A stretch of 28,015 nucleotides of DNA from a virus. Made by a program: the position numbers and the translations under genes. The stretch is taken from positions 1 through 28,015 of the IMG/VR virus record IMGVR_UViG_3300025137_000202; one strand, given 5' to 3'. The notes below the pieces were generated by a model, which made no database searches, was not told where the DNA came from, and saw only the letters and a list, made by a program, of their open reading frames with translations. Of this stretch, positions 707 through 26,200 are shown piece after piece. Within the stretch, counting starts at the first letter, position 1. The number at the start of each line of letters is the position of its first letter.

Positions 707-3700
707 TTAACTCTTTAGAAACACTGCTGCCGCAGTTGTCTGATCTTGTAAAGGTATTCCGTTACTGGCAGTACTAGAACCTTGTGCATACATTACGTTA
801 GCAGTTACCTGGCTAAACCAAACTTCAACTCCATTTAATGGTGCAGTTGTAAGAGTAACTTCAGTAAATGTACTATCAATACCTGTTACTGTATAATCAG
901 TTTCTGGAACAAGTATTGTGCCACCTACTGTTACAGTAATCGATTCGGTGTGTTCAGTGCTGTCAATACCAGTTGGTACTATAATACTTGTAGTAAATCT
1001 TGTTTCAGACCCGTTTCCTACGTTTGTTTTGTCAGTGGTTGTTTTCTCTTGGTATGTGCTTGGTAATTGCTCACCTGGTCCAACATCAGTAACACTTTCA
1101 CCTGCACTGTGAACATACACTCCTGTTCCTGCAGTACCACGTCTAATGTCACTTACTGTATTATTACCTGTATCTCTTACTCTGTATGTAATTCTTTCTG
1201 CGCCAACCATAAGTTGTCCAAAAATATTAGCTTCCAAGTTTGGCTCACTTAATTTTGATACATCTTTTAAGTAAATTACTGACGCCTCTACTGCAAGATC
1301 TTGTGCAAGTTCAGTTGTATTATTAGAGTTCATCCTTAATAGCTTTTGATTACCAAGCATATCCTGGAAGATTCTAAAGTTTAAACTATTAGGTACCACT
1401 GTGTTTGTAAACATAGTCACTGCTAAAACATCTGCGGCATTTATAACGTTTCTATTAAGTACCAGCGTAGTTTTGTTGTTGGCATCAGTTGATAGATCGT
1501 ATTCGGTTTGTTGAATGTAAATTCCGTTAAGTGTGACTATAAGTCTTTCTGGACTAGACACAAGTCTACCAAGTGCAAAGTTATTGGTGTCAACTGTGGT
1601 TCCTATGGTTTTATCAAATTCTGCACTATCATATGGCACTTCGTCATATGCGTCTCCAGTTGTAACACCAGTTGATGTTGGTCCAACAAAAACTTTTGTT
1701 AAAATATTTTGTTGTGCAGTATCATTATAGGTATACACTGCAAATTGTGCGTTTGATACTGCACTAACACGTAAGTCTATCTGATCACCAAGTATAATAT
1801 AATCTGATTCAGTTGTGGTAAAAATCTTAATGTCTGAGTTTGCAGGTGGCATACTGCCCACAGTAAATTCTATAAATCTATCACTCGATCCATCCCAAGC
1901 ACTTAAATTGAAATCAACTGCTAAATTCTGTTTTACGTTATCTACATATACCAGCATATCGTTGTCTGCTATTAGTGCTTGATTACTAATACCAGTAGTA
2001 CTAATATAATAAGGACCAGCACTAGAACCGTCGCCTGTGTACTCTATACCTTCTGGTGGACGTAGTCTCAATCCTTCACGTTGTACTGATAAGTTTGCTA
2101 TATTTGTTCCTTGCAAACTATTTGTCAAATTCTCTAACAGGCTTGATCCGTCATATGTCATATATTGTACTAACGGTGTACTCCACGAATACTGTGTTGG
2201 TGTAGTTGCTCCAAGTGGTACGATCGTTACCCAGTCAGTTGCACTGGGTTGAGTTGTAAATGAGATAGTGGTTGCAAAACTGCCGTCCGCAGCAAATGTA
2301 TAGCCTGTAGTGACTGCTCCATTTATGAATATAACCATTTCATTAATTTCTGTAAACGCTACAGGAATTGTTTGCACTTTATTTGTAATAGCAGACCCAA
2401 CAAAACTTTCTTTGTACAATTGCGAGCCGCCACCTAGTCCGTAAACTTTTACTGCAATTATGTTTCCAATCGAACTTGGCATGGTTGCCCCAAATGTTAC
2501 AATTTTGGTTACCCAATTAATTGAGTATGCAGTGTTTACTACACTTTGTCCAATTGTGTCATCAACAATTTCAATGCCAACTGGATGTAACATAGCGTTT
2601 GCAAAACTAATTTTTGTGCCAGTCCCAGCAAATGTTGTAGTAGTAGTAACTATATTAAAACCGTGTCCATCATTACTCCAGTCGCTTCCTGGACGAGTAA
2701 AAACTTTAAGGTCTAATGTGTCAAACTCACTACCAGGTATCAGCTCTTCTGGTGCATGTGAACTATAGGTGTCAATAAACTCACCACCATCAACATTTAT
2801 ATCTGTTGATCTAGTACCAAGATAGGTATCAACAAATGAACTCTGATATATTACATCTAATATGCCCGGGTCATAGGTTGGTAAACCTTCAGGACCAAAG
2901 TCAATGTTGTCATATGGATTAATATCAAAGTTACCTACATCATAGCCTGTATTTTGATTAAAATTTGGACCTTCGACTTGTACTCCAGGATAATCTATAC
3001 CTGTCATCACCTGTGCAAGTTCTCTGCCTGGTTCGTTTGGTTCCGGAGTGTACAAGCCTATTGTTCTGTCTGCACCATCAAGTGTGTTTTGATCAACTTT
3101 AGTATATTTTTCAGGATCAAATGAACTGCCGCTTGTAAAATTTGCAGTGACGCTATACACTTCGGGTAAACTTGCATTTATCACACCAACAGTTGGCACT
3201 GGAAAACGTACTAATTGTCCTGCGGTGTAAGCTGTATTTGCAGACCAGTCAACTACTTGGCTTGTATATGTAATTCTATCGTACGCTATTGTTGTTGTAA
3301 AATCACGTACTTGTTGTGGTTCTAGCACTGCAACCGCAGTAGCACCAGTTCCATTTCCACCTGATATCGTAACAGTTGGTGTTGTAGTGTAACCGGTACC
3401 AGCAGTAATTAAATTAACTCTTATCACTACTCCAGCAGTGTTAACCGTCGCAGTCATTGTTGCTTGTGTAATTGCATCGCCAGTGACAATCACCTGTGGA
3501 GCAACTGTGTAGCCTGTACCGCCATCTATGACAGTTATACTTTTTACTTCAAGTTTATAGTTGTTATACCATTGACTCCATGGAAATGTTTGCCAAACAA
3601 CACTTGTGCTTGGTACGGCACTCAATGATTTTGGATTAGTACTATCGTCCAGTATTGGAGATACAAACTGTTGTCTGAGACTATCATAGTAAGCTGGCAG

Positions 3701-6700
3701 ATCAAAATCAGTGATACTACCATTATATGTGTCTTCGCCTTCGTAGCGTAAGTTAAATTCTCTAACTTGAACATGATATGGTTTGACTTCTTGTATGTAT
3801 TGACTTACAAAGTCTTGATTATCACGTCTGTAAATAGGATATTCAATAAGATCTCGTATCTTATGATTTACGTCAATTAGACTTGTTTTGAATAACCAGT
3901 CTGGAGCAGGTTGCTCGCTCATAATAAATTCAAAAGTTAATATTAAAAGGTCGTTTCTAAATTTACGTAGATTTGTTGTAAATATCTCATCGTTAAGTGC
4001 TTGTAATATTTGTCTTGTTTCTATATTTGGTGCCTGGTCAAAACGTTGTGCATCAAACACTTCAACATCAAATCCATAATTTCCGTCAGTGTAATTCCAA
4101 ATAGTACTATCAATCGCAATTGTTCCATCTTCTAAGAAAACTCTTGTCCACTCGCTTGTAGTTGTGCTATACTGATATACTTCTTGTTTTCCAAAACTGT
4201 TTGCTTGAACTGTGGCCCATACTCCGTCTGACACATTCGTCAATGCTAATAAGTCACTATATAAACCTACATCATATGTGCTGGCATTTGCTGTACTATA
4301 AGTTGTAAAGTCTGCATTTATTCCGTTCCAGTCTATATAACTCCAATATAGTTTTGTATCATAGTTTTGTACTCTTGATAGCAGTAACTTTTGTTCAGCC
4401 TGCACGGTATAAATTGTCCATAGTCCTTCTTGTGTACTATCACTGGCAATAATATACTTGTAACCAACTGCTACTTGTCTCAAGTCTTGATATGTAAGTT
4501 CTGCATATGTTAGTAAGCGTTTGTCCCATTCTCCGCTGGCAGAAGTTGGCTCTGGCTCTTCACTGTTTAATAATTTAAAACTTTTGCTATCTGAAATCGG
4601 ATACAGTTTCATAATTGCATTTGCACGTTTCATGTAGTTTTCGAGGGCAAGGAAGCGATTTATAAAGAAACTTTGTCTTGGTCTAAAACTTACACCGTAT
4701 TTGTCTGCAACACTTAATGTTGGGTCTGGCACAAGGTTACCCAGTGTATCTTCGCCACAAAAACTGTCAAGAAATTTTCTATACAATCCTGCACCTAAGA
4801 AACTTTTTGCATCTCCAACAGTAATTAAGTCATATTCACTATGAACATTATCGTTATTTGCAATCTTGTCAAATTCTATATGTAAGATAGTATCAGTTGC
4901 TGAAAATAAATTTCTACAGTTGTATAAACTAATTGTACTTTGGCTTATGGCAGCACTGTATGCAACTCCACTTGAACGAGGATTCTCAATATACTGTGCA
5001 ATTCCGCTTGAACTGAGTGTTTTATTAGTACTAACTGCTGTCAACCCTTTTACCCAGAAGTAGTAATATGTAACAAAGGTTCCTGCACTATCAAGTTCAC
5101 TGCTTATAACATAACTGGTTGTGGTGTATACAGTTCCTTCTCCGATATAAGCATCAGGTGCAACTGTATTCTTTGTCCATTGATATACATCTACAGAAGA
5201 ACCAGGAAACAATTGTCCCCAACGTCTGGCTTTATATTCTATGGTGTCTTGATGGTAATCAATAAATCTTACCGTGCTTAAATCCCACCAAATCTTTCCA
5301 AGGTATTCATCTCTCCACTGTGAACCATAATTGTTTACAGTGCCTGTGTTGTAAGCCGCAGGATCGATACCGCCGGTATAGTCTATATTAGCCTGTGCTG
5401 CTCCTAGTATCTTGCCTTGTAATGGATCAATAAAGTCTAAATATGTAGTAATTTCGTTATTAACCTTATTATAGGTAAAAACACTATTCAGTAAAGATGC
5501 ATCAACAATTGGTTGCTGATTGTATAAGCGTTTCCAGGCTGACTCTTTGTTTGTGTTTACAAGTTGTACCACTCTTCCATAGTCACCTGTAGCAAGATTT
5601 AAATCATCATTTGGCGCACCAACTAACAACACACCGTCGTAATAGTCAACTGCACTACCAAACTTGTCAAAACTTGTAATACTTGTATCAAATATTTGTT
5701 GTCCAAATGCAAACTTGCCAGGATTGGTTGCACTCGCATTTGCACTTGGTAAGAAGTTATAGGTATACGCTACACCTGATTCATTAAGAGGATCAATTAT
5801 AGATGTGCTTTTTGAGTCAAAGAAGGTAGCACCAAGGTCAAATGTTGTTGGAAGATTAGCAGTTGCATCCGGAGAACCAACTACCAGAGTTGTCGCAGTA
5901 CTATCAATTTTCAAACTTTTACCAAAGTGTCCATAATCATTTGCAATTGGTGCAGTAATAGTTTGAGCATAAATTATTGGTGTCAGCCCAAGATCTGCAA
6001 ACGCAGTTCCGGCTCCTGGGGCAATCTGTAACTTTATAAAGTCTTCGGCAGCTTGTACATCTGTAAGCGTCACTTGTAAAGCACCGTTTACACTGGTTGC
6101 AGTAATATTTGGTATGTTTGCGGTAGTAATATCAGTTACTAAACTAGCAACGGTTGTACCAGTGAGAGTCACATAATAGTTGTTAATTCTAATTGAATTT
6201 GTTGCAGTCAATACTGGATTAGTCGCAGTACCTGTTATAGTTCCAAATAATCTTGCTTGGTTAATCCATCTGTCAACGCTACCGCCTTCTGGAACTAGCA
6301 AACTATCATTTGGTTCAGCAATATAAAGGCTACAGTTTGTAGAACACATATCAACAACACTTCCAAATTGATAATTTTGACCTAAAGTGGTTGCATTAAT
6401 TGTTTGGACTAGTCTAAATATATTTGTTTCAATTTCTACTATATCACCAATATTAAGTGTGAATGGATTTGTTGTAGTACCTATTGTTACAGTAGTTCCT
6501 GCTACACTAAACTGTGCGTTGTTAGCGTTAGCAGTCGGAATCAAATATGTGCCATTGACAGTAACAGTAACAGCTCCAACTGGTGTATCTGTGGTTGTAA
6601 AATTTTGTGTAGTTGTAGAAGCGACAGTAACTTGAAAACGTTGTACACTTCTGTCGTATATCGATACTTTACCAGCCTCGGTAGTTGTAACTGCGCCAAC

Positions 6701-9700
6701 GGTTACGTCAGTTTTAGGAGCACCAATTATTAAATGCCGTCCGTCGGTTGTGGTGCTTATACTTTCCCCTGCTAAGTCACCAGCACTAGCACCCGATACT
6801 GCAATGGTCGATACAAAATCCCAACTATCTTTTGAATCTATTAAAAGTGTTCCTGAGTTTATACCTGATATTAATGTTACAGTGCTACCAGCAAAGGTAT
6901 AATCAAATATTGGGCGTAACAATGCTCCATTATAGTTGACTGAAAAACTATATATGTCATTCACTGTAAATAATTTTGCAGTACTAAACGCAGTAGTTGA
7001 TACACTTGGCAGATATGTAATGCCTTGCAATCTTGTAATTCTTATTTTATCGTTATCATTAGGAGCAGTTGTAAACCTAACTATTTGTTTACTATTAGCG
7101 TCATCAACTACTGTAAAGGCAACACCAGCAGTTTGAGCTACATTGTTTCTTGTAACTCCAATTTGTGTTTGTGCAGTCCCATTGATTGCACTTACAACAA
7201 TGCTTCCTTCTATTAGAAAATCTGTGGTTGTTCCGTTTCCAGTATAATTTAGTGTTTGTCCTTGTACATCAACTTTGTTGTATGCATAAATTTTGTTATC
7301 TTCAGGAGCACTTATATATAGCCAACGCTCATCATCACTTAGTGCAACATCCTGGCCAAACTTATCTGCGTCGGCTGTCCCTGTGTTAAAAAGTTGCGTC
7401 TGCGTATATTCACCGTTTGAACTGTTACGTTTAATTGTAATAGCATACCCTTTATTACTATCACTTGCAGGTGCACCAGTTGCCACCCACTCGGTATTTC
7501 CAACACTTAAACTTGTACCGGTACCTACAAAACCTGTTGCAGTTGGTGTCATTATAGTTACTTCTTTGTACGTATTGGTATCTGATTTTCCATAACAGTA
7601 TACGGCACCTTTGCCACTTGCATAACCTGGAGCACCAATTGCTAGTCCTTGACCTATCAATCCTTGTGCTACTGTGGTTCCATAAAGATCGTTTAACACA
7701 GGTGTATCAGCGTCAATTTCTGTCGGAGTTCCAAAAGGATTAATTTTTTGTAGTACTGCCCAGTTTCCATCACCATAGTCATCTACCCATGCCTGATTTC
7801 CTGGAACAATATTATTTGCAAAACTTAAAGAGGCAACATCACTTGCTTGTTTTACACGCACACTTTCTAGTGTAAAACATCGTCCGTCACCGGTAAGTGT
7901 AACAGTTTCACCTGCAAGACTAAGAGGCACTGTCAGTGTTTTTAAACTAGGCACAGTACTTACTATGTAGGCTCCATCAACTCCTGTGCCAAAATATTTT
8001 ACAACAATTCTTGCACCTGCTAACAAGTTGTGATTGACATCAAAAGTTAAAGTACACGTGCCATTTAAATTGTCAGTAACTGAAACAATACTTGCGTTGA
8101 CTAAGTTTGTCCTATATATGTTCCAATCGTAACTGTTAGCTTTTGCAACCCATATATTTGTCCCAAGTGTGATTATATCTATGTTAGAAATGATATCAGT
8201 AAGGTCGTCATAGTCAAAAACCTTAATATCAACGTCATCAAAGTTTACATAACCGGCACTTGGCAGAGCTATATCTTCTGGAATCTTACCAACAGTTGGC
8301 AAAATATTTTTATTTGTTATCTTGTAACTTTGTTTCCAAATTCCGTCTATTAATACTGTTTGGTTTGCAGTAGACACTTCTTGATTATCAATTACTGCAA
8401 TAGTGCTAGGATTACTTAACAATTTGCTTTCATCCGTACGGAGCTCGAAGTAACTACGATTTGCGTTTGCTCCGTATATACCGCGTTGTATGGCCCAGTT
8501 CTCAAAAATCTCATATTCTGCTTCTTCTTTGCCGAGATTTGCACTTGTAAATGTTTCTGCAGCCTGTAAAGTGCCTTTTGTTCCGAGAAACTGTGAGTAC
8601 AAGCCAGCTTGAGAAATATCATCTAAGTTTAAATTTTGCATATACTGTCTTGGTCGAAAGCCGATTAATCCTAAACCTAATAGCGTTGCGTCACTTTCTA
8701 GGTTTGCAGTATGTATATCATAATTTTCGCGTAAGTTATCTGCTTTTGTGGCAAGGTTTGGTAGTAAGCCAGTTTGTATTTGTGCATAATCGCTTTTTAT
8801 CCAATCAGCAAAAACAAATGTTTCGCTTGGCGATAACAGAGTAGTTGCACTCCAATATGCATTTTTATATAGAACTATTTGACCCTTTGTATATGCGGCA
8901 TTTGGCTCCCATTCTTTAATATTATCTTGATTTAAGATAAAACCTTGAGCATCCAAAGTACCATTCCACTCGAACACTGTTTGACCATTTAGTAATAATC
9001 TATTCTGCCTAGCACCTGTTATTGGTTGATAAATCAAGTCATTAAAAATACTTACATTATCAAATACTAGTATATGTTCATATGAAGTAAATCTTGCTAA
9101 TAATAGACTAAACGTTTCGTTGTTTATTCCTATAAGTTTAAGTTCGTTTCCTAATCGTTCTACTGCATAATCTTTTGTTGTCATTGGTCCAAAATTTTGA
9201 CTGAGCATTACATCATTTATATTTTCACTTGCTAGGCTTTCAACTACGCTATTGGCCTTTTCTAATTTTAAGACATCGGCTGCAGGATTTAGATTAATAA
9301 TACTTCCTACTGTCCAGCTTTGTCCAGACCAGTACAAAAACTCTTGTGCCATTTGTGTCCAGTTTAAGATATACTCATTTTCCACACTGTCAAACGTTAG
9401 TCCTTTTTGTGTAAGCAATTGACCGTAACTTACTAAGAAATCAACCACACTAGTTGTACTTGTAAACACATATCCATACGGTACTTGAACAACATTATTG
9501 GTAAATGTTTCTGGTATACGTACTGCTTGTCCGTTCACTGTGATTGTACTAAACGTTCCTGCAGGAGTGCTTTGTAATATTTCAAAAAAGGGTTTAATAG
9601 TTGAATAGCCTGCAACTGAATATCCTCCGGCAACTCTTTGGACAGTCACAGAAGAATACTGCACTTCTGCAAAACTTGGATTTTTATAGAGAAACAGTTG

Positions 9701-12700
9701 ATAACTCTCATCTGGAAGTAGAAGACTACTATTCAAACTATTTGGTGATGACTTTTCAGAAAATATTTTTAAATAATTTTGATCACTAAAAGCAGCCATT
9801 CTGTAACAGAGCCTTACATCCATGTTAGACAATGAAGTTTTTAATAAAGTAGTGCTATCTAGTCCAGTGACTCTGTTGTAATCAACAATAAAATTTATAT
9901 AACTTTTTTTAATTGTTCCGTTTCCGTATACGCTTATAACGCTAGGATCAATACGAAATCTATTATCATACAAATACTGACTAAACTCGGTATTGTATTT
10001 GTATAGGTCTCGGTCGGCAAATAATGAAAAGTATTTTGCTGGTTTTGTTAGTGCTAATAATCTTTGAATTGCAAATGGATAATAACTGCTTCGACGCCAT
10101 GCATCTTCAGTTGGTGCCATATCACCTGGTACCCAAGATTTTACAAAACTATTTTTATCATAAGAACCAACAATAGTATCTATTGGTGCTAAAAGATTAC
10201 CTTGTGAGTCAGTTGGTATACAGTCCAAAAGTTGCGGACGTATATACTGATTTCTAACTACATTTCCTGTTGGATATGCAACAATTCCTTTTGCTAAGTC
10301 GTCCCATAATACAGTGTTTCCTGATGTATAAGGTGCTGGACCGTAAGTTGTCTGCCACCAAGTTGGTTCTTCGGTAAGCCCGACCATTTCCCATGGTCTT
10401 GTATGCGGAGAGTCTGTGTCATATAATTGAAAGTAAATTCCGCGCCATGCTCCTAGTAGAGGTTGATCACTTAATTTGTTGCCACTTTGGCTATAATTCC
10501 ATGTAAACGCATTATCTTCGATATAGGTTTGTTTCTTATACGGGACACGGTTGTCTCCTACCCATGCTAGAAAACTTAGGTTAAGTATATTGTTTGTTTC
10601 TGTTAATGTGTATTCTGTAGTTCTGAACTGTCCTGGGATCACATCCACTGCCTGGAGTGGAATATTGTATTTGTCATATGCACTACATTTTATATTGTTG
10701 TATATTCTTTTTTCAAACTCTAATAAAACTGCATTTCTATAATCGCCTGTTTCAAATGCTACAGTTAAACTACCATCATGTCCTTGTATAACATTTGTTG
10801 GTGTCACATACGTATTATCTAAAAACTCTTTAGGTCGATACACTCCGTACATACCCATCATACTTGGAGTTGCTGGGACATAACTTCCATAAGTCGTGGT
10901 GTATTCATTTATCGTAATTATGTCACCGTTTACCAGTGTAATTTTATCTGTATTAATTGTGATGCGAGGGCCATCTGTAGCTACTGTATACTCGTAACCA
11001 TCTCCAGTTAAGATAGTTTGGATACCGGTACTCTTTTGAGTAAGATAAACCAAAATGCCTTTATAGTTTGCAGTTGTTAAGTCATAGCTGAATAAAGTGT
11101 CAAACACATTAGTTGTAATTGGCGATACTGTATATGTAGTAGTCTGGAAAGTATTACCGTTTGGTATTGAATCAGTCCAATAAAACGGGCTCGATTCGCT
11201 CTTGCCTGCATTTATACCCAACAACGTACTATCTAATATTTGTGCAGTGGTTTTTCCCTCCCAGTCGTTGTTTGCAACATACTCTAAAATTTTGTTTTTT
11301 GTTTTTGCATATTCTGAACTGTTAAAATCATTGGCACGGAAAAATTCAAAGTCTCTGCCATTAATAAAGTTAGTCATTAATGTAACCGGAGAACTTTGTT
11401 GTAAAATAAGCGAACCAAAGGGTACAACGTTACCCAGGTCTCTTACATTATTGTTACCATGTATCTTTCCAGTAAAATTTTCTAAGTTTTCGCATATGCT
11501 TTCATAGTGTGTACGTATAGTGCCAAGTGTAAAACTTGTACTATTTTCATTCATAGCATTGGATTCAAGATTTGAAGGAATAGTATAAAACGCCACACTA
11601 CTGGCCGCATCACTTAGTACCTGTATTTCAACTATAGCACCGATATCTGGTTGTGTACTTGGTTGTCCCACAATATTTTGATTAAAAGTTACAACAGTAA
11701 CAGCATCAGTGTTTGTACTGTAGGTATAAGTGCTAGGAAGAACAAATTGTCCGTCAACATAAACCTTGACTGGAATTTTTGAAACATCACTCAGTACCTC
11801 AACGTCTAAGACTAATGAATTGCCAGCATAGGTGAAACTAAAACTTTGGCGTTGTGTGTATGTTTCAAAAGATGTTTGCCATCCTAGAAGTTTATTATAG
11901 GTTGTTATACTATTATACTGTCTTACTGACCCTGTGTCAACCTTTTTTGTTACACTTACTGTTCCGTTTACATATACAAAGGTATCTGTATATAAATTAT
12001 TATCAAATACAATATCACCTACATTTGCAATTGTTAGGTATTTCAACGGCTGGTCAATTACTGTGTCAGTTGCACCAGTACCAACGGCATAACTGAAAAG
12101 TTTTGATCCAGCAAAGGTTGTACTGGGATAAACTGTGATATCACTGAAACTATAGCCACTGCTATCAAATATATCAAATAGTGGTGCTTGATTCACACCA
12201 GTTTTTTGTTGAGCCGACTGCCAAGTTGTTCCATTGTACCAATATGCTTTTCCTTGTAGAGTCGTTCCTGAGGTTACTACAACATTAGTGTTTGTAGGAG
12301 TATCAGGTGTAGTTAAACTTGCTGGTTGCAAGTCTATTACATCAACACTACTATCGCCAAAGTCTACAAAACTTACTGTATAAATTTTATTACGTACTTC
12401 TGCATCGATATCAGCCGCAAATATAATTCTCGATCCTGCTACTAGTGTGTAACCATCAACACTATATCCTATAGTACCATTGATATTCGAAAATGCATCG
12501 GTCTCTGTAAAATCAATTATATCTACTGGTTGCGTTGCTACTGTTCCATAGTTGAAAAGTTTCAGACTTTTTCTATATTCTAATATTGGGCGTTTAGCAC
12601 GATTATCATTGTTTATTTCTAAGGGCACTTTATTATAAATTGCAGTTGCTTCAAGTACACCTATGTGAAACCATCTGTTACCTCTACTCCATGCATTTTG

Positions 12701-14296
12701 ATCTAAACTTGCTCTGTTTATAGTCATATAGTCTTGAGCCGTCGGAGCATTATTTGTGGCATCAAAATTACCTTCATCAAATGCGGTACTATCAAACGGC
12801 ACAGTTGTCGATACAGTAAACGTCTCTGGCGTAATAAAATTTGTAACTGGCAATAGTTCTATTGCAGTGCCTACTCCTTCTATATAATATTCTAAATTTT
12901 CGTAACTTGCAGGAACCACTGCACCAATAAATTGTACTTTAAGTCCGTTTGTAAACACAACGCCGTTTGGTGATGTATAAGTTGGTTTGCCAACTATATC
13001 TTCAATGCGTAAATCAGAAGCATTTGCTTGGTCAACAAGACGTATTACACCAAAGTTTGTTGAATCACTTTGATCCTGATAGTAAACTATATCAAGATTA
13101 GCAGTGATTAGCGGCTGACGCTCAAACAATCCTGTAGCATTTTTATAAAAAGTAACACCAGCATAGTCAGTACCGTATTCTATAAGGGTTTTACTTTGAT
13201 TGGCAATATTTTTTACTTTTGTAAGTTCGATAAAAGGACGAAGTGGATTTGTATAATTGTAATTTATTCTCCACTGTACATAACGCTCTGAATCTGTTGC
13301 CAACGGTACACTATTATCAAATCCTGCATTTGGGATACCAGGATTATCTTGATCAAACAAAGTTTCATCAAAAGGAGTGAGTGTTTCCCAACCAGTATCG
13401 GTGTCAGTGGTAATAATAAGTGTTCTGTTTTGTAGATCTGTTATGCCGTCAATGCCACCATGTGCGGCTAAAAATACATCCACAAACTGATTATTAATTT
13501 GATTAAACTGTAATTTGTCTTCTAGTAGATCTGTACTTCCAATATCTGTTAATGTAAAATAATAATTTTGTGCAGTTTTATCTGGCACTGTAAATTTAAC
13601 TGTACCTACATCGTCGCCATTGTTGCTTACACCTAGTACTTCACGAGAACTTTGGTTTGGTTGTTGTGGTAATGTACCTGATACACCAGGCGTACTTTGA
13701 ATCCAGAAGTTACGTCCATTTGCATTGACATCAAAAGTATATTCACCTTGTCGGACAAAAGTAAGTGTTGGCAATGCACCTGCTACACCAGAAAACGTAT
13801 AACCACTAGGACTATAAGCAACATCAAATGTGTCTCGTATCGCTATAGTGTTTGCAAAAACGTCAACACTATTTGGGCCTTCTGGCACCCAATAATATTG
13901 ACTAAAATTAATATATTTGTCGTAATCCACAAAAGGATCAAAACTATAATATTCGCTATTAAATAGCCTGTCATCTCTGGTTACATTTGCACCTTGTAAC
14001 TCTAAACTATCAATTATTCCAGGGTATGTAATTGCATCTGCAACTTTATTTGTATTTGGTGTAAGTTGAACAACTCCAGGTTCAAGTTGATAGTCAGTTC
14101 TTGTAGCAGTTGGTTCAAGAACATAGCTATCAGATGCAGTGACACCAGGACCAATTTTACGTCCTATATAACCTTCTGTTGGTTTTAATTTTGGATTTTG
14201 TGTTAACTGATCAAGTGTACTACGCAACAACTGCTTGTTTGCAGGTGTTTGAAATATTTCGGGTAGGAAGTCTTCAGAGCGTATACGCTTAGCCAT
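707..14296 (-). CDS. Giant modular baseplate/tail structural protein (4529 aa)
   Basis: A single open frame of 13,590 bases with no stop, starting one base after the gp6 stop; GGAG (14306-14309) lies 9 bases upstream of the ATG. Visible parts: an aromatic-rich N-terminal third (residues 1 to ~1790); a CBM5/12-like segment beginning at W1796; seven FG-GAP-like blades between about 2205 and 2910 with 50-195 residue spacing; a conserved-looking region ~3000-3520 (contains YIQEVKPYHVQVREFNLRYEG); two GxGYTxxPxV repeats at ~3585-3660; a second CBM5/12-like segment from W3684; and tandem Ig-like modules up to the C-terminus, including an RRGTAGT motif. No signal peptide or membrane helix is seen. 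T4 has gp7 and gp8 after gp6, so this may be a replacement or expansion of the wedge/rim proteins, or carry host-contact surfaces. Function is inferred from context only. Confidence 0.93.
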   Translation of the reverse strand: MAKRIRSEDFLPEIFQTPANKQLLRSTLDQLTQNPKLKPTEGYIGRKIGPGVTASDSYVLEPTATRTDYQLEPGVVQLTPNTNKVADAITYPGIIDSLELQGANVTRDDRLFNSEYYSFDPFVDYDKYINFSQYYWVPEGPNSVDVFANTIAIRDTFDVAYSPSGYTFSGVAGALPTLTFVRQGEYTFDVNANGRNFWIQSTPGVSGTLPQQPNQSSREVLGVSNNGDDVGTVKFTVPDKTAQNYYFTLTDIGSTDLLEDKLQFNQINNQFVDVFLAAHGGIDGITDLQNRTLIITTDTDTGWETLTPFDETLFDQDNPGIPNAGFDNSVPLATDSERYVQWRINYNYTNPLRPFIELTKVKNIANQSKTLIEYGTDYAGVTFYKNATGLFERQPLITANLDIVYYQDQSDSTNFGVIRLVDQANASDLRIEDIVGKPTYTSPNGVVFTNGLKVQFIGAVVPASYENLEYYIEGVGTAIELLPVTNFITPETFTVSTTVPFDSTAFDEGNFDATNNAPTAQDYMTINRASLDQNAWSRGNRWFHIGVLEATAIYNKVPLEINNDNRAKRPILEYRKSLKLFNYGTVATQPVDIIDFTETDAFSNINGTIGYSVDGYTLVAGSRIIFAADIDAEVRNKIYTVSFVDFGDSSVDVIDLQPASLTTPDTPTNTNVVVTSGTTLQGKAYWYNGTTWQSAQQKTGVNQAPLFDIFDSSGYSFSDITVYPSTTFAGSKLFSYAVGTGATDTVIDQPLKYLTIANVGDIVFDNNLYTDTFVYVNGTVSVTKKVDTGSVRQYNSITTYNKLLGWQTSFETYTQRQSFSFTYAGNSLVLDVEVLSDVSKIPVKVYVDGQFVLPSTYTYSTNTDAVTVVTFNQNIVGQPSTQPDIGAIVEIQVLSDAASSVAFYTIPSNLESNAMNENSTSFTLGTIRTHYESICENLENFTGKIHGNNNVRDLGNVVPFGSLILQQSSPVTLMTNFINGRDFEFFRANDFNSSEYAKTKNKILEYVANNDWEGKTTAQILDSTLLGINAGKSESSPFYWTDSIPNGNTFQTTTYTVSPITTNVFDTLFSYDLTTANYKGILVYLTQKSTGIQTILTGDGYEYTVATDGPRITINTDKITLVNGDIITINEYTTTYGSYVPATPSMMGMYGVYRPKEFLDNTYVTPTNVIQGHDGSLTVAFETGDYRNAVLLEFEKRIYNNIKCSAYDKYNIPLQAVDVIPGQFRTTEYTLTETNNILNLSFLAWVGDNRVPYKKQTYIEDNAFTWNYSQSGNKLSDQPLLGAWRGIYFQLYDTDSPHTRPWEMVGLTEEPTWWQTTYGPAPYTSGNTVLWDDLAKGIVAYPTGNVVRNQYIRPQLLDCIPTDSQGNLLAPIDTIVGSYDKNSFVKSWVPGDMAPTEDAWRRSSYYPFAIQRLLALTKPAKYFSLFADRDLYKYNTEFSQYLYDNRFRIDPSVISVYGNGTIKKSYINFIVDYNRVTGLDSTTLLKTSLSNMDVRLCYRMAAFSDQNYLKIFSEKSSPNSLNSSLLLPDESYQLFLYKNPSFAEVQYSSVTVQRVAGGYSVAGYSTIKPFFEILQSTPAGTFSTITVNGQAVRIPETFTNNVVQVPYGYVFTSTTSVVDFLVSYGQLLTQKGLTFDSVENEYILNWTQMAQEFLYWSGQSWTVGSIINLNPAADVLKLEKANSVVESLASENINDVMLSQNFGPMTTKDYAVERLGNELKLIGINNETFSLLLARFTSYEHILVFDNVSIFNDLIYQPITGARQNRLLLNGQTVFEWNGTLDAQGFILNQDNIKEWEPNAAYTKGQIVLYKNAYWSATTLLSPSETFVFADWIKSDYAQIQTGLLPNLATKADNLRENYDIHTANLESDATLLGLGLIGFRPRQYMQNLNLDDISQAGLYSQFLGTKGTLQAAETFTSANLGKEEAEYEIFENWAIQRGIYGANANRSYFELRTDESKLLSNPSTIAVIDNQEVSTANQTVLIDGIWKQSYKITNKNILPTVGKIPEDIALPSAGYVNFDDVDIKVFDYDDLTDIISNIDIITLGTNIWVAKANSYDWNIYRTNLVNASIVSVTDNLNGTCTLTFDVNHNLLAGARIVVKYFGTGVDGAYIVSTVPSLKTLTVPLSLAGETVTLTGDGRCFTLESVRVKQASDVASLSFANNIVPGNQAWVDDYGDGNWAVLQKINPFGTPTEIDADTPVLNDLYGTTVAQGLIGQGLAIGAPGYASGKGAVYCYGKSDTNTYKEVTIMTPTATGFVGTGTSLSVGNTEWVATGAPASDSNKGYAITIKRNSSNGEYTQTQLFNTGTADADKFGQDVALSDDERWLYISAPEDNKIYAYNKVDVQGQTLNYTGNGTTTDFLIEGSIVVSAINGTAQTQIGVTRNNVAQTAGVAFTVVDDANSKQIVRFTTAPNDNDKIRITRLQGITYLPSVSTTAFSTAKLFTVNDIYSFSVNYNGALLRPIFDYTFAGSTVTLISGINSGTLLIDSKDSWDFVSTIAVSGASAGDLAGESISTTTDGRHLIIGAPKTDVTVGAVTTTEAGKVSIYDRSVQRFQVTVASTTTQNFTTTDTPVGAVTVTVNGTYLIPTANANNAQFSVAGTTVTIGTTTNPFTLNIGDIVEIETNIFRLVQTINATTLGQNYQFGSVVDMCSTNCSLYIAEPNDSLLVPEGGSVDRWINQARLFGTITGTATNPVLTATNSIRINNYYVTLTGTTVASLVTDITTANIPNITATSVNGALQVTLTDVQAAEDFIKLQIAPGAGTAFADLGLTPIIYAQTITAPIANDYGHFGKSLKIDSTATTLVVGSPDATANLPTTFDLGATFFDSKSTSIIDPLNESGVAYTYNFLPSANASATNPGKFAFGQQIFDTSITSFDKFGSAVDYYDGVLLVGAPNDDLNLATGDYGRVVQLVNTNKESAWKRLYNQQPIVDASLLNSVFTYNKVNNEITTYLDFIDPLQGKILGAAQANIDYTGGIDPAAYNTGTVNNYGSQWRDEYLGKIWWDLSTVRFIDYHQDTIEYKARRWGQLFPGSSVDVYQWTKNTVAPDAYIGEGTVYTTTSYVISSELDSAGTFVTYYYFWVKGLTAVSTNKTLSSSGIAQYIENPRSSGVAYSAAISQSTISLYNCRNLFSATDTILHIEFDKIANNDNVHSEYDLITVGDAKSFLGAGLYRKFLDSFCGEDTLGNLVPDPTLSVADKYGVSFRPRQSFFINRFLALENYMKRANAIMKLYPISDSKSFKLLNSEEPEPTSASGEWDKRLLTYAELTYQDLRQVAVGYKYIIASDSTQEGLWTIYTVQAEQKLLLSRVQNYDTKLYWSYIDWNGINADFTTYSTANASTYDVGLYSDLLALTNVSDGVWATVQANSFGKQEVYQYSTTTSEWTRVFLEDGTIAIDSTIWNYTDGNYGFDVEVFDAQRFDQAPNIETRQILQALNDEIFTTNLRKFRNDLLILTFEFIMSEQPAPDWLFKTSLIDVNHKIRDLIEYPIYRRDNQDFVSQYIQEVKPYHVQVREFNLRYEGEDTYNGSITDFDLPAYYDSLRQQFVSPILDDSTNPKSLSAVPSTSVVWQTFPWSQWYNNYKLEVKSITVIDGGTGYTVAPQVIVTGDAITQATMTATVNTAGVVIRVNLITAGTGYTTTPTVTISGGNGTGATAVAVLEPQQVRDFTTTIAYDRITYTSQVVDWSANTAYTAGQLVRFPVPTVGVINASLPEVYSVTANFTSGSSFDPEKYTKVDQNTLDGADRTIGLYTPEPNEPGRELAQVMTGIDYPGVQVEGPNFNQNTGYDVGNFDINPYDNIDFGPEGLPTYDPGILDVIYQSSFVDTYLGTRSTDINVDGGEFIDTYSSHAPEELIPGSEFDTLDLKVFTRPGSDWSNDGHGFNIVTTTTTFAGTGTKISFANAMLHPVGIEIVDDTIGQSVVNTAYSINWVTKIVTFGATMPSSIGNIIAVKVYGLGGGSQLYKESFVGSAITNKVQTIPVAFTEINEMVIFINGAVTTGYTFAADGSFATTISFTTQPSATDWVTIVPLGATTPTQYSWSTPLVQYMTYDGSSLLENLTNSLQGTNIANLSVQREGLRLRPPEGIEYTGDGSSAGPYYISTTGISNQALIADNDMLVYVDNVKQNLAVDFNLSAWDGSSDRFIEFTVGSMPPANSDIKIFTTTESDYIILGDQIDLRVSAVSNAQFAVYTYNDTAQQNILTKVFVGPTSTGVTTGDAYDEVPYDSAEFDKTIGTTVDTNNFALGRLVSSPERLIVTLNGIYIQQTEYDLSTDANNKTTLVLNRNVINAADVLAVTMFTNTVVPNSLNFRIFQDMLGNQKLLRMNSNNTTELAQDLAVEASVIYLKDVSKLSEPNLEANIFGQLMVGAERITYRVRDTGNNTVSDIRRGTAGTGVYVHSAGESVTDVGPGEQLPSTYQEKTTTDKTNVGNGSETRFTTSIIVPTGIDSTEHTESITVTVGGTILVPETDYTVTGIDSTFTEVTLTTAPLNGVEVWFSQVTANVMYAQGSSTASNGIPLQDQTTAAAVFLKS
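3100..3250 (-). other. Second CBM5/12-like (chitin-binding type) segment of the giant protein
   Basis: From W3684 the protein reads WSANTAYTAGQLV, followed after an insertion by VYSVTANFTSG and, later, KYTKVD. The pattern W-x5-Y-x2-G-x2-V ... Y-x-V-x-A-x-F is that of short carbohydrate-binding modules of the CBM5/12 type found in chitinases and in many phage tail proteins. The assignment rests on pattern only. Confidence 0.4.
5569..7684 (-). other. Predicted seven-bladed FG-GAP (integrin-alpha-like) beta-propeller in the giant protein
   Basis: Seven blade-like motifs occur in order: IGAPG (G2221), TGAPASD (G2274), FGQD...ISAPED (F2313), IIGAPK (G2525), FGSVVD...IAEPND (F2644), FGKSLK...VGSPDA (F2791), FGSAVD...VGAPND (F2879). 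Each resembles the FG...(V/I)GAP(x)D core of FG-GAP repeats. The gaps between blades 3-4, 4-5 and 5-6 are enlarged and hold Ig-like strand-rich inserts with the pattern VTVNG...I.F...P....I.I. Seven is the expected blade number for integrin-alpha heads. The fold is inferred from motif spacing. Confidence 0.65.
8780..8915 (-). other. First CBM5/12-like segment of the giant protein
   Basis: From W1796 the protein reads WEPNAAYTKGQIVLYKNAYW, followed by SATTLLSPSETF and a closing FADWIKSD. This fits the short carbohydrate-binding pattern W-x5-Y-x2-G-x2-V-x-Y-x3-Y-W-x-A with a final tryptophan. Such modules often bind chitin-like or other surface glycans. Here it could bind host glycan or simply be a small structural domain. 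Confidence 0.45.
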
Positions 14297-14297
14297 A

Positions 14298-17200
14298 CTA
14301 GACTACTCCACTATTAGTTGCAGTTCTTAGTTGACTGCTAGTAAGTGCATCAATTACTTCAATATCATTTACTGTGGCCGCATTTACAAATATCTCATTA
14401 GCTTGAGATCGGATTTCATACAGGTCTCCAAATGATTTTAATGGATCAGTCGGCACAAGAACCACAGTACTAATAATGCTTCCTAATTGATCATGTAGAT
14501 AAGCACTTAATTCTGAGAAGAAGAAGGTATCGCCAAAGTCCCAATTTTCTATTGTAAAGTATGTGTTCATACTTGCTACAACTTGACTTTTTATTTCGCT
14601 TATACTTGCAGTACTAGCAGGATTTTTAACGCACTTGATTGTTGCACGTAATTCAACTGCAGACTTAGTGCCAAATAAAGGCTTAAATGTTACACTGTTT
14701 AATATTATATTATCTGAAATCATTTTATACTGATCAAGTGTACTATAACTAGTGGTGAGTTCATCTATAGTCGGCTTTGCTGGTTCAGGTACAGAGCCTG
14801 TACTATCTCTTACATAATTTTGATATGCAATATAATACGATTGAGTTACAAGATAAATGTCAATAATATTTGTAGTACCTGGGTCAATACGTCGGCTTAA
14901 CGGAGCATTGTGTCTATATTGAAAGTACAACCCTTGTCGGCCAACAAATGTTTGATAACCAGTAACGACTGCAATAGTTCGTACACCATCATAGGCGACA
15001 GATAATTTATAAAACTTTTTATCTGTATAAGCATAAAAAACTTGTGCATCGGGATATTCGCTCTTTACTAATTCAATAGCGGCACTTGTTGCTAAACTAC
15101 CAATTATCACACCTGATGCTAATGGCAAATATCTTTCTAAGTTATCAAAATCAATTGTTTGTTGTAAAAATATTCTTTTGTTGTTTGGGTTTACTGTTGG
15201 TGCAACAAGTGTTTCAAAATAATCAGGATTATCTGGGACGCCGTCGTTATCAGAGTCTTTATAAGATATACGTACTCTAAAATCATCAATGAAGCCATCT
15301 GTCTCTACAGGCTGGTCAATTATGTCTAATATCTCATCACTGTTAAGTGTTGAACTTGAATCTGGTAAGTTGTTTGTTTTTAAAACATTTATAAAGTCGT
15401 TTATAACTGTTCCTGTTTTTGGATCATAAACTTTTTGTGTGCCGTCATAAAAGAAACGTGTCTCAAGTACACTAGCCCAAAACCGTTGTAAACTACGCGA
15501 GCTCACAGTATAAGTGACTCCGTCTGTTTCAAATGCAATTAACCAGCTATTATCTAATCCAGCACCTGTAGTGTTTTGTGCATTTGCAAGACTAAATGTA
15601 ATTGCTGAATTTAAGTTTGTACTTGTAATAACGTACCAAGTGCCTGTTAGATTATTATAACCTAATCCAAAGTTTCTATACAGTTCAATGTTCTCACGCA
15701 TAGTTGTTTCTATGCTTGTTGGTAAGTCTGTGACAAAGTTTGGAATAACTTCAGTTGGCACTGCATTTGTAGGAATAAAATTATTTAAAGTTACTGGGCC
15801 TGTTCCATCTGTATTGTTTCCTGTGCCAAAATTTGTGCCATCAAGTTCGAGTGCAGTCACAGTTGCCCACAATATCATTTTATCTCCAGGTAATGTAGGC
15901 GAACCAACGGCTAGTCTGTTAGTTGCGGTAAAATATTGTCCTGCTGGGGGTATGAATTTTACTAGTCCGCCTTTAGCAATATACTGTTTATTATCACTTG
16001 CTTGTGGTCCAACTGGTGCCGGAGCATTACTAGCCACAAATCTAAAGAATCCTGTAGTTTCGTTATTGCTAGTTGTACTTTGACTCCAATTTAGATTTAG
16101 GCTTGTAAGACTTGGACGCAAAAAGTTTTGGTAATAAAACTCTTGCATACCTCGGCCCGCTAGTACTGGTTCAACTTGATTTTGTATAACATCATTTATA
16201 TCATTCTGATCAATAAAAGTAAAGGTAAAACTAGGTACTTCTGTGTTTTCATAAACCATTCCGTCTGATGCAAACACGTTTGTACTTGAGTATTTTCCAG
16301 TGATGTCAACAAGATCCAAATATCTACTAGTGCCAATTGAGCTACGATTAACTGCCTTGGACTTGATTATAGTTGAATAAAGTGTATATGGAAAATTATT
16401 GTAGTCTTCACCATTAACCATGCGATTTTGCGTATAGTATCTTGCTGGTGCACGTTGTTTAATATCGTTTATATTTTCTCTGTTCGCGGCATTACTAACT
16501 GGTGATGTTAAAGCACAGGTCAGTGATAAAGTTTCATTGCGTCCGGTTCGACTAACATATCCAATACTGATCGAAACATTTTGCATCTCGTCTGGATTAA
16601 TAATATAACTCAAACCATTTGAAGAACGAACATAAGTTCTAAAACTGCCAACTGGAATACTACTGAAAACACCATCACCAAAGTTTAAATTAATTTGATC
16701 ATTGGTTCTTGAACTTATATTAAAATATCGGCGTTGTTCTGGCGTAAGTTCCTCAACTGCACCACTGTAGATGTTTTCTACTTTGGTCCATTCATTCTGG
16801 ATGTTGCCAGTTGCATCTAGTTGATATAACCAAGTATCTTCATTGTTTATACCTTCAATGTTTACGTTTACAACCCTGTTAGAAATACGTTCGCCAAGAT
16901 TAAAATCAAGATCCTGTAAACTGCCTTGTTTGAATAAAAAGAAGAAGCCGGTATTCGCACTTGCATATCCTTGTTTGTCATTACGATATAATACATTAAA
17001 TGCTCCATTAGGCGCAGGCGCTGGCTCGTAAAGATATGTTTTATCTTGCGATGTAGCACATACTGCTTCAAATGCCATTGCAGTTCCATTAATGGTATTT
17101 GTAAATGGTACAATCGGAAGGAAACCTTGTATAAGGTTAATTGCATACTCGTCTGTTTGGACTCCAAGCAATGTTTGTGTATTTCCAGGTCGACCAAATC

Positions 17201-17705
17201 TTTGACTGTTTGTTAACGCACTATTTACAATTACTGTAAATTGCTCTAGCCAATTTGCATTAGTGGTGTCATTCCAGTTCACTGTAATATTTGAAAGATT
17301 TACACCAGTAAAATCTGTCACACCTTCTGTAGTACTAATACTTTGTACTTTTAAAAATCCTTGTGCTGCAGTGTTACGCTTTGGTGTGTAACTTACTAGT
17401 TCTGCTAGCCTGTTGACACTGTCTCTTCTTTCAGCAGTGTCAATAAAATTTTCTCTTGTGTTTAGATCATTTCTAAAACTACCTGCTTGACCCATAAATG
17501 CCATTACATCAAGAAGTGCAATAAATTCACTTGACTCAATATAGTCGTTAAAACTTTCTGGATAATATAGACGTATGTAATCTATAAAACTTTTACGAAG
17601 TGTTTCAAAATCATAACTTTGAAAATCTGCTTCACGATATGTTTGGTAGATTCTCTTCCAATCTTCAACACCAAATATACTTGTTTGTCTTGTAGTTTTA
17701 GCCAT
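14298..17705 (-). CDS. gp6: Baseplate wedge protein gp6 (J-like), enlarged
   Basis: The N-terminus (DWKRIYQTYREADFQSYDFE; then IALLDVMAFMGQAGSFRNDL, residues ~14-83) and the segment NRMVNGEDYNNFPYTLYSTI (~427-446) are typical of T4-like gp6, the wedge protein whose dimers form the inner ring of the baseplate. The C-terminal part (~995-1110) is the conserved domain SVTFKPLFGTKSAVELRATI...WDFGDTFFFSEL. At 1135 residues it is much longer than T4 gp6 (660), the extra length lying roughly between 500 and 990. Residues 817-828 form a DxDxDGxxDxxD calcium-loop motif. The ATG is supported by GGTAAGGAAA (17711-17720) and a late promoter directly upstream. It follows gp25 by 51 bases and abuts the giant gene. 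Identification is firm; the role of the insert is unknown. Confidence 0.96.
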   Translation of the reverse strand: MAKTTRQTSIFGVEDWKRIYQTYREADFQSYDFETLRKSFIDYIRLYYPESFNDYIESSEFIALLDVMAFMGQAGSFRNDLNTRENFIDTAERRDSVNRLAELVSYTPKRNTAAQGFLKVQSISTTEGVTDFTGVNLSNITVNWNDTTNANWLEQFTVIVNSALTNSQRFGRPGNTQTLLGVQTDEYAINLIQGFLPIVPFTNTINGTAMAFEAVCATSQDKTYLYEPAPAPNGAFNVLYRNDKQGYASANTGFFFLFKQGSLQDLDFNLGERISNRVVNVNIEGINNEDTWLYQLDATGNIQNEWTKVENIYSGAVEELTPEQRRYFNISSRTNDQINLNFGDGVFSSIPVGSFRTYVRSSNGLSYIINPDEMQNVSISIGYVSRTGRNETLSLTCALTSPVSNAANRENINDIKQRAPARYYTQNRMVNGEDYNNFPYTLYSTIIKSKAVNRSSIGTSRYLDLVDITGKYSSTNVFASDGMVYENTEVPSFTFTFIDQNDINDVIQNQVEPVLAGRGMQEFYYQNFLRPSLTSLNLNWSQSTTSNNETTGFFRFVASNAPAPVGPQASDNKQYIAKGGLVKFIPPAGQYFTATNRLAVGSPTLPGDKMILWATVTALELDGTNFGTGNNTDGTGPVTLNNFIPTNAVPTEVIPNFVTDLPTSIETTMRENIELYRNFGLGYNNLTGTWYVITSTNLNSAITFSLANAQNTTGAGLDNSWLIAFETDGVTYTVSSRSLQRFWASVLETRFFYDGTQKVYDPKTGTVINDFINVLKTNNLPDSSSTLNSDEILDIIDQPVETDGFIDDFRVRISYKDSDNDGVPDNPDYFETLVAPTVNPNNKRIFLQQTIDFDNLERYLPLASGVIIGSLATSAAIELVKSEYPDAQVFYAYTDKKFYKLSVAYDGVRTIAVVTGYQTFVGRQGLYFQYRHNAPLSRRIDPGTTNIIDIYLVTQSYYIAYQNYVRDSTGSVPEPAKPTIDELTTSYSTLDQYKMISDNIILNSVTFKPLFGTKSAVELRATIKCVKNPASTASISEIKSQVVASMNTYFTIENWDFGDTFFFSELSAYLHDQLGSIISTVVLVPTDPLKSFGDLYEIRSQANEIFVNAATVNDIEVIDALTSSQLRTATNSGVV

Positions 17706-17756: not shown

Positions 17757-18137
17757 CTACACGTCTGAGTAAGCGGCTCTTTGTTGTTGTTGATCAAAAA
17801 ACACTTGTAATAGTTCAGCATCTTGCCCAGCAACTGTTTGTACTTCAAGTTCAATTAGGATGCCATTTTCTTGTGCAAATACATTTATGTCACTGATAGA
17901 GATTCGCGGATCCTGAGCACATACCCTTTGTATCTCTGTATTGATAGCTCTTGTGGTTTCAGCACTTTGTGGTTCGTAGATTAATGCCCACATACTTGTA
18001 CCAACATTAGGACGCCCTGGCATTTCTCCTTGGCGTATGTTTAAGGCATTAAGTAAATCACGCTTAATTAGATCAAAGTCTGTAACAGTAAAACTTTTGT
18101 ACTTGTTTATTGTACTATATCCGATAAATGTTGCCAT
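17757..18137 (-). CDS. gp25: Baseplate wedge protein gp25 (GPW/gp25 family)
   Basis: A 126-residue protein, close in length to T4 gp25 (132). It shows the family signature: N-terminal Tyr/Lys-rich strand (KYKSFTVTDFDLIKRDLLNA), then IRQGEMPGRPNVGTSMWALI containing the conserved G...W core, and the C-terminal ISISDINVFAQENGILIELE strands. gp25 is a small wedge component that helps hold sheath and gp6 together in contractile tails and is found in nearly all such systems. It lies between the spike and gp6 genes, the classic order. No clear Shine-Dalgarno sequence precedes the ATG; instead a late promoter element sits 4 bases upstream, suggesting leaderless translation or coupling to gp5. Confidence 0.96.
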   Translation of the reverse strand: MATFIGYSTINKYKSFTVTDFDLIKRDLLNALNIRQGEMPGRPNVGTSMWALIYEPQSAETTRAINTEIQRVCAQDPRISISDINVFAQENGILIELEVQTVAGQDAELLQVFFDQQQQRAAYSDV

Positions 18138-18140
18138 ACT

Positions 18141-18149
18141 GTATTTATG
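18141..18149 (-). promoter_or_regulatory. Late promoter overlapping the gp5 stop codon, upstream of gp25
   Basis: Minus-strand CATAAATAC, in which the TAA is the stop codon of the gp5-like gene. Only CAGT-like bases separate it from the gp25 ATG, so the expected transcription start falls at or within one base of the start codon. The motif is identical to those at 12-20 and 17723-17731. Confidence 0.6.
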
Positions 18150-23573: not shown

Positions 23574-23873
23574 TTAGAATCCTAGTACTGATTTTAATGT
23601 AGATATCTGTGGTAGATAGATTGTTGTTCCAGTTGTAAAGTCAAACAACGGGTCTTGTAACTGATTTGGATTACGTTGAGCAAACACCCACCAAAGACTT
23701 GCATCTTCGTATAAGTCAAATGCAAGTAAATCAGGACGTAAGTTATAAGTTTCATTTATAGTCATTGATAAATCATCAATCAGTTTGGGAATAGGCCTAT
23801 CAACCATAATACCCAGATATTGATTACTGATAACCGGAGTATCGAAGTATGAACTAGTGGACGTATAAGACAT
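23574..23873 (-). CDS. gp53: Baseplate wedge protein gp53, short form
   Basis: A 99-residue protein with the gp53 core: YLGIMVDRPIPKLIDDLSMT, YNLRPDLLAFDLYEDASLWW and VFAQRNPNQLQDP, ending in a TGTTIYLP strand like the LysM-type fold of this family. T4 gp53 is about twice as long (196). It helps lock neighbouring wedges together. I chose the ATG at 23873, which overlaps the upstream TAA as TAATG and has AAAGGA eight bases upstream, over a GTG two codons earlier (23879) which would sit only two bases from the same ribosome binding site. Overlap with the gp48-like gene implies translational coupling. Confidence 0.92.
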   Translation of the reverse strand: MSYTSTSSYFDTPVISNQYLGIMVDRPIPKLIDDLSMTINETYNLRPDLLAFDLYEDASLWWVFAQRNPNQLQDPLFDFTTGTTIYLPQISTLKSVLGF

Positions 23874-26149: not shown

Positions 26150-26154
26150 GTATA

Positions 26155-26161
26155 CTCCTCT
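26155..26161 (-). promoter_or_regulatory. Ribosome binding site that fixes the gp48-like start
   Basis: Minus-strand AGAGGAG, five bases before ATG 26149. It is the strongest Shine-Dalgarno sequence in the leftward block, and the reason for rejecting the in-frame start at 26182. Confidence 0.85.
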
Positions 26162-26165
26162 AGTC

Positions 26166-26174
26166 TTATTTATG
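26166..26174 (-). promoter_or_regulatory. Late promoter for the baseplate gene block
   Basis: Minus-strand CATAAATAA. The predicted start of transcription, six bases on (about 26161), coincides with the first base of the ribosome binding site, giving a 12-base leader. It is the first late element of the leftward block in this window. Confidence 0.65.
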
Positions 26175-26200
26175 GTAACCAAAAAGTGCGTAGTTAATGA

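Follow-up and report, generated by a model that had tools for sequence, protein, structure and literature searches.

Does a run of FG-GAP-like motifs in the middle of a giant phage protein form a closed propeller, and what would such a ring do at a baseplate? The question is raised by the IMG/VR virus record IMGVR_UViG_3300025137_000202, analyzed here over its whole length of 28,015 bases (the window), in which one gene encodes a giant wedge-associated virion protein of 4529 amino acids (aa). The initial annotation, made from the DNA alone, had placed in this protein a seven-bladed FG-GAP propeller with Ig-like inserts. Profile searches, a predicted model, and structural comparisons strongly support the view that residues ~2186–2924 form one closed seven-bladed propeller of the integrin type (FG-GAP_2). 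Its parts are assigned as follows.

5525..7741, minus strand: propeller including inserts, FG-GAP_2, seven-bladed, residues 2186–2924 (Pfam, AlphaFold2 model, and structural matches)
7550..7675, minus strand: blade 1, residues 2208–2249, IGAP (model and motif)
7388..7513, minus strand: blade 2, residues 2262–2303, TGAP (model and motif)
7274..7348, minus strand: blade 3 strands 1–3, residues 2317–2341, YISAP (strand 4 at 6800–6823)
6824..7273, minus strand: blade 3 insert in the 3–4 loop, residues 2342–2491, two beta modules (model and profile)
6644..6763, minus strand: blade 4 strands 1–3, residues 2512–2551, IIGAP (strand 4 at 6395–6418)
6419..6643, minus strand: blade 4 insert in the 3–4 loop, residues 2552–2626, all beta (model and profile)
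6260..6355, minus strand: blade 5 strands 1–3, residues 2648–2679, YIAEP, with CxxxC in the 1–2 loop (strand 4 at 5954–5977)
5978..6259, minus strand: blade 5 insert in the 3–4 loop, residues 2680–2773, alpha/beta, the best-conserved insert (model and identity comparison)
5693..5917, minus strand: blade 6, residues 2794–2868, VVGSP, with a long low-confidence 2–3 loop (model and motif)
5555..5653, minus strand: blade 7 strands 1–3, residues 2882–2914, LVGAPNDD (model and motif)

All seven motifs were located in order within positions 5569–7684 (residues ~2205–2909), as the initial annotation had it. They start at residues 2220 (IGAP), 2273 (TGAP), 2327 (YISAP), 2523 (IIGAP), 2658 (YIAEP), 2805 (VVGSP), and 2891 (LVGAP). 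In each of the seven, a spacer of 13–16 residues separates the Gly of the FG position from the Pro, and another Gly follows within 15 residues downstream. The same Gly/Pro/Gly pattern has been published for integrin propellers as the Cage motif (PMC3192720). This pattern exceeds chance. The blade profiles match one another (best independent E-value (iE) 3e-5), and seven unit matches, all with an iE of 2e-13 or better, were obtained with a profile made from the same units, which makes them partly circular. The Pfam family FG-GAP_2 (PF14312), whose curated cut-off is 23 bits, matches the full-length protein with 31.9 bits (E 1.5e-7), where two stretches pass, and the excised region with 45.8 bits (E 6.7e-12) in four stretches. 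Pfam FG-GAP (PF01839), the family initially expected, was unmatched up to an E-value of 10, in a search whose HMMER filters could drop weak matches; the family is PF14312 instead.

The propeller was modeled with AlphaFold2 without templates, using 22 homologues as input (mean predicted local distance difference test (pLDDT) 73.8, predicted template modeling score (pTM) 0.78). When the model was compared using VIA-align, integrin alpha heads occupied all 50 of the top 50 rows, with Z scores of 34–38.5 over 346–366 residues at ~3 Å and 14–19% identity. These matches cover the model from 36/37 to 766–776, and the best of them (Z 38.5, 355 residues, 3.0 Å) spans 37–775. Ring closure was judged from these whole-ring superpositions, in which the seven motifs pack into a single closed ring. 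The fourth strand of blade 7 is probably supplied by an N-terminal strand (residues 2192–2194), which would complete the closure. Foldseek against the PDB also returned many integrins, with a high global root-mean-square deviation that we attribute to the inserts. Its first-ranked hit, cyanophage A4 chain U, was discarded, having a TM-score of only 0.15. Matches in a viral structure library included a protein of an uncultured tailed phage and FG-GAP proteins from giant viruses of eukaryotes.

Three inter-blade loops had been described as stretched, and the distances between neighboring motifs indeed rise to 196, 135, and 147 residues at three of them. According to the strand assignments, each of the three long insertions falls between strands 3 and 4 of its blade (blade 3, 4, or 5). 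In integrin propellers, the 1–2 and 3–4 loops lie opposite the FG-GAP/Cage end (PMC3192720); therefore, the inserts sit on the propeller end opposite the FG-GAP motifs. Their description as Ig-like holds in part: the inserts of blades 3 and 4 are all-beta, but that of blade 5 contains a helix in the model and is therefore not Ig-like. The insert positions recur in the same blades among relatives, and individual inserts can be missing. The relatives L028 and L029 do not have the first module of the blade 3 insert, L132 and L157 do not have the blade 4 insert, and in L163 the seven motifs follow one another at 57–79 residues with no long insertion (Pfam FG-GAP_2, E 2.3e-21). Therefore, the inserts are separable modules. 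Searches of Pfam and PHROGs with the insert domains of the window gave no convincing match; the blade 3 insert region of L157 has a weak CBM_X2 match (E 0.0035, under the cut-off).

The acidic clusters that had been noted near the expected calcium-loop positions are not calcium loops. Calcium loops of the DxDxDG type, sought with a regular expression, were found in none of the 22 homologous propellers. The DD following the GAP motif of blade 7 is invariant in the alignment, but it lies within the 2–3 loop, outside the calcium loop. The published integrin definition places DxDxDG between strands 1 and 2 of blades 4/5 to 7 (PMC3192720), and this feature is absent here. Strictly speaking, the domain is therefore not classed as an integrin alpha propeller. 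At the integrin calcium-loop position of blade 5, most relatives have a CxxxC instead (6332–6346, minus strand, in the window; also in L066 and L157), possibly a disulfide or a metal site.

The carrier protein is encoded in a T4-like baseplate gene cluster, recognized by profile matches on the minus strand of the window; gp55 and gp47 lie on the plus strand.

23574–23879, minus strand: gp53
18145–20379, minus strand: gp5-like hub
17757–18137, minus strand: gp25
14298..17705, minus strand: gp6-like baseplate wedge subunit, directly upstream of the giant gene (phrog_10646, E 3.5e-276; phrog_219, E 1.6e-25)
707..14296, minus strand: giant wedge-associated virion protein, 4529 aa, phrog_10938 family (E 2.8e-301; relatives in RaK2, PA5oct, and Atu_ph07)

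Both the profile match and the position beside gp6 assign the giant protein to phrog_10938. The gene order gp53, gp5, gp25, gp6, giant protein is the same in RaK2 and PA5oct, and the record of the PA5oct homologue bears a mark of electrospray ionization tandem mass spectrometry (ESI-MS/MS), that is, of a virion protein. Virion proteomes also contain the 382-kDa gp245 beside wedge protein gp244 in phAPEC6 (PMC7247149) and CBB_236 beside wedge protein CBB_237 (PMC5259590), both of which, from position and size, would be homologues. From this synteny and the virion proteomics of homologues, we infer that the giant protein belongs to the baseplate, in agreement with the initial annotation. Compared with L021, it is 92% identical in the propeller, 86% in the N-terminal part, and 70% in the C-terminal 730 residues, a mosaic divergence that suggests recombination. 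The protein encoded upstream of gp53 (23873–26182, minus strand) has a low-complexity stretch with many short repeats of the QVDDF type.

Further modules were recognized along the giant chain.

8789..8926, minus strand: CBM5/12-like module, residues 1791–1836 (Pfam E 1.2e-4, under the cut-off; 8fqc_P1, Z 8.8, 1.0 Å, 45 residues)
7859..8113, minus strand: small beta-barrel just ahead of the propeller, residues 2062–2146 (Z ~6.5–8.6, 74–82 residues)
4307..5509, minus strand: conserved post-propeller domain, residues 2930–3330, the anchor common to phages without the propeller
1820..2047, minus strand: C-terminal beta module, residues 4084–4159, kin to the first blade 3 insert module (iE 3.4e-5)
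830..946, minus strand: C-terminal beta module, residues 4451–4489, kin to the second blade 3 insert module (iE 2.3e-5)

A second AlphaFold2 model, of residues 1560–2170 (pLDDT 78, pTM 0.38), matched small modules only. The barrel ahead of the propeller resembles the barrel of phage endosialidases and a beta domain of ubiquitin E1 enzymes. Farther downstream, G.GY...P.V repeats occupy 3242–3556 on the minus strand (residues 3581–3685). A match to phrog_460 ('head closure') is probably spurious and arises from these repeats, and a Sarcoglycan match was likewise judged to be a repeat artefact.

The distribution of the propeller differs from that of its flanks. Searched with three queries (the window, L028, and L163), 50,697 phage records gave no match to the propeller, whereas its flanks match 55–59 jumbo-phage records. 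In IMG/VR, one scan confirmed at least 581 loci of the wedge-associated family. Among 111 non-redundant IMG/VR loci with enough upstream sequence, at least three propeller units were counted in 102, all seven in 35, and none in 5; the profile used for counting was derived from this very family, so that the counts are not independent. Most IMG/VR relatives thus have the propeller, and its interpretation as a rare insertion at a hotspot was rejected. In a tree of the conserved domain following the propeller (104 rows), 90 rows have the propeller and 4 more show a weak signal. Its presence requires one change, on a branch with a support of 99 in the Shimodaira–Hasegawa-like approximate likelihood ratio test (SH-aLRT). 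Depending on the root, this change may be one gain or one loss. The propeller looks like a surface-binding module common to one large branch of uncultivated phages.

The propeller-free side of the tree comprises RaK2, PA5oct, Atu_ph07, Phosso, SCTP-2, and Vibrio 2.275. In PA5oct the site is nearly empty, with a very short linker (VWIDSINSDNDWAVAVVSG...RQNLVDSKLF); its counterpart in the window reads NWAVLQK, the propeller, and SAWKRLYNQQPIVDASLL. In Atu_ph07 and Phosso, the site is filled by GxGY..P.V repeats instead, which resemble the repeats at residues 3581–3685 of the window protein. The wedge-associated protein of Phosso has no propeller despite 42 FG-GAP_2 matches in the genome, most of which lie in two hypothetical open reading frames of ~3,200 and ~3,700 aa (PV764938.1, 48338–68978; L199). 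Atu_ph07 encodes a free-standing 'hemagglutinin' with FG-GAP_2 repeats, gp320 (L198:7019–8200), which adjoins genes annotated as tail sheath. With PA5oct, whose site is nearly empty, and the insert-free L163 as reference points, the order in which the ring and its added domains were acquired can be worked out, and each acquisition is separately testable.

Three points are computational results: the fold, its place in the chain, and the one change that the family tree requires. The initial annotation regarded the decorated propeller as a good surface for ligand binding, which is plausible, and we give about an even chance to its being a peripheral disk that contacts the host surface during adsorption. 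The propeller lies mid-chain between the two conserved halves of the giant protein, and the closeness of its entry and exit suggests a side module protruding at the baseplate periphery. Blades 3–5 carry the extra small domains at the end that faces away from the FG-GAP motifs, and the rigid disk would touch the host cell, probably at a glycan or an envelope protein. Among the close relatives, the more distant ones show 60–62% identity in the propeller against 72–79% in the flanking domains. No single face of the propeller is conserved, and both features fit an exposed surface better than an interface in the core. The neighboring CBM5/12-like module and endosialidase-type barrel resemble carbohydrate-binding parts and plausibly favor host contact. 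Precedents are phi11 Gp45, a receptor-binding protein with a five-bladed propeller, and PhiKZ gp131, whose seven-bladed propeller lies at the periphery of the baseplate (PMC4901313). Several observations weigh against host contact. The propeller is retained over a very diverse clade, as would also be expected if it had a constant role inside the baseplate. It is not hypervariable, and its blade 5 insert is 80% identical between clades. No ligand, active, or calcium site was found in the propeller.

In a somewhat less probable alternative, the faces and inserts would form an internal docking platform that holds tail fibers or other peripheral baseplate proteins, much as T4 gp7 holds gp8, gp9, and gp10, without touching the host. 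The giant gene directly follows gp6, the position of T4 gp7, which contacts gp8, gp9, and gp10 and swivels on triggering (PMC3004832). Maintenance of the propeller with its three-insert layout across diverged phages and the strong conservation of the blade 5 insert point the same way. However, neither sequence nor profile comparison detects a relation between the giant protein and T4 gp7, the flanks are better conserved than the propeller, and isolates without a propeller, one of them (PA5oct) with a nearly empty site, make working baseplates with the same wedge-associated gene. It is unlikely that the ring is merely a spacer or ballast tolerated at a loop of a modular giant protein, with no specific ligand. 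The varying contents of the site, from the short linker of PA5oct to the repeats of Atu_ph07 and Phosso, would suit such a spacer, but the tree, on which the propeller was gained or lost once and kept by nearly all descendants, and the conserved motif spacing argue for selection. That the motifs are due to chance or low complexity and close no propeller is extremely improbable: although only two stretches of the full-length protein pass Pfam and the loops of the model are of low confidence, the uniform integrin matches at Z ≥34, the seven evenly spaced Cage motifs, and the insert-free version in L163 are contrary to this. Beyond the favored role as a host-contacting disk, a bolder proposal has a rather low probability, namely an integrin-like sensing head at the baseplate across the whole clade of uncultivated giant phages, in which the ring would bind a host ligand, the added domains would relay the signal, and this would help to trigger tail contraction.

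Among known systems, T4 gp7 resembles the giant protein in gene position. PDB profile searches with three conserved regions of the giant protein gave no match, hhalign against T4 gp7 gave chance matches only (probability ~0.5% or less), and no Pfam gp7 domain was found in it. A gp7 chain is also absent from the listed structural matches of the residue 1560–2170 model, which leaves structural equivalence possible. The giant protein is therefore not filed as gp7. Its closest kin, the phrog_10938 proteins of RaK2, PA5oct, 121Q-type phages, Atu_ph07, and Phosso, share homologous flanks and the same gene neighborhood, but these isolates have no propeller at this site.

The propellers of integrins alphaM, alphaL, alphaV, and alpha5 share with the phage ring the seven FG-GAP/Cage blades and superpose over the whole ring. 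The phage propeller differs in having no DxDxDG loops, in being embedded in a phage protein, and in carrying its inserts in the 3–4 loops, whereas integrins carry their alphaI domain on the upper face, where it is inserted between blades 2 and 3. With PF14312 propellers it shares the family match; the phage version is set apart by extra modules, beta or alpha/beta, on three of its blades (3, 4, and 5) and by its embedding in a 4,529-residue wedge-associated protein. Like phi11 Gp45, PhiKZ gp131, and the K1F and phi92 endosialidases, it is a propeller in a tail-tip protein, and the endosialidase barrel resembles the one ahead of it. However, its top structural matches are integrins, and its chain is giant and wedge-associated rather than a trimeric fiber or spike.

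FG-GAP propellers and phage propeller adhesins were known already, and searches of the open-access literature on FG-GAP with phage baseplates or tails turned up no paper on such a domain. The propeller is a defined, expressible domain with which to ask about the attachment of these phages. What is new is an integrin-shaped ring free of calcium loops, with add-on domains in its 3–4 loops, placed inside a giant wedge-associated protein that is encoded beside gp6 in a widespread clade of giant phages, so far only uncultivated ones.

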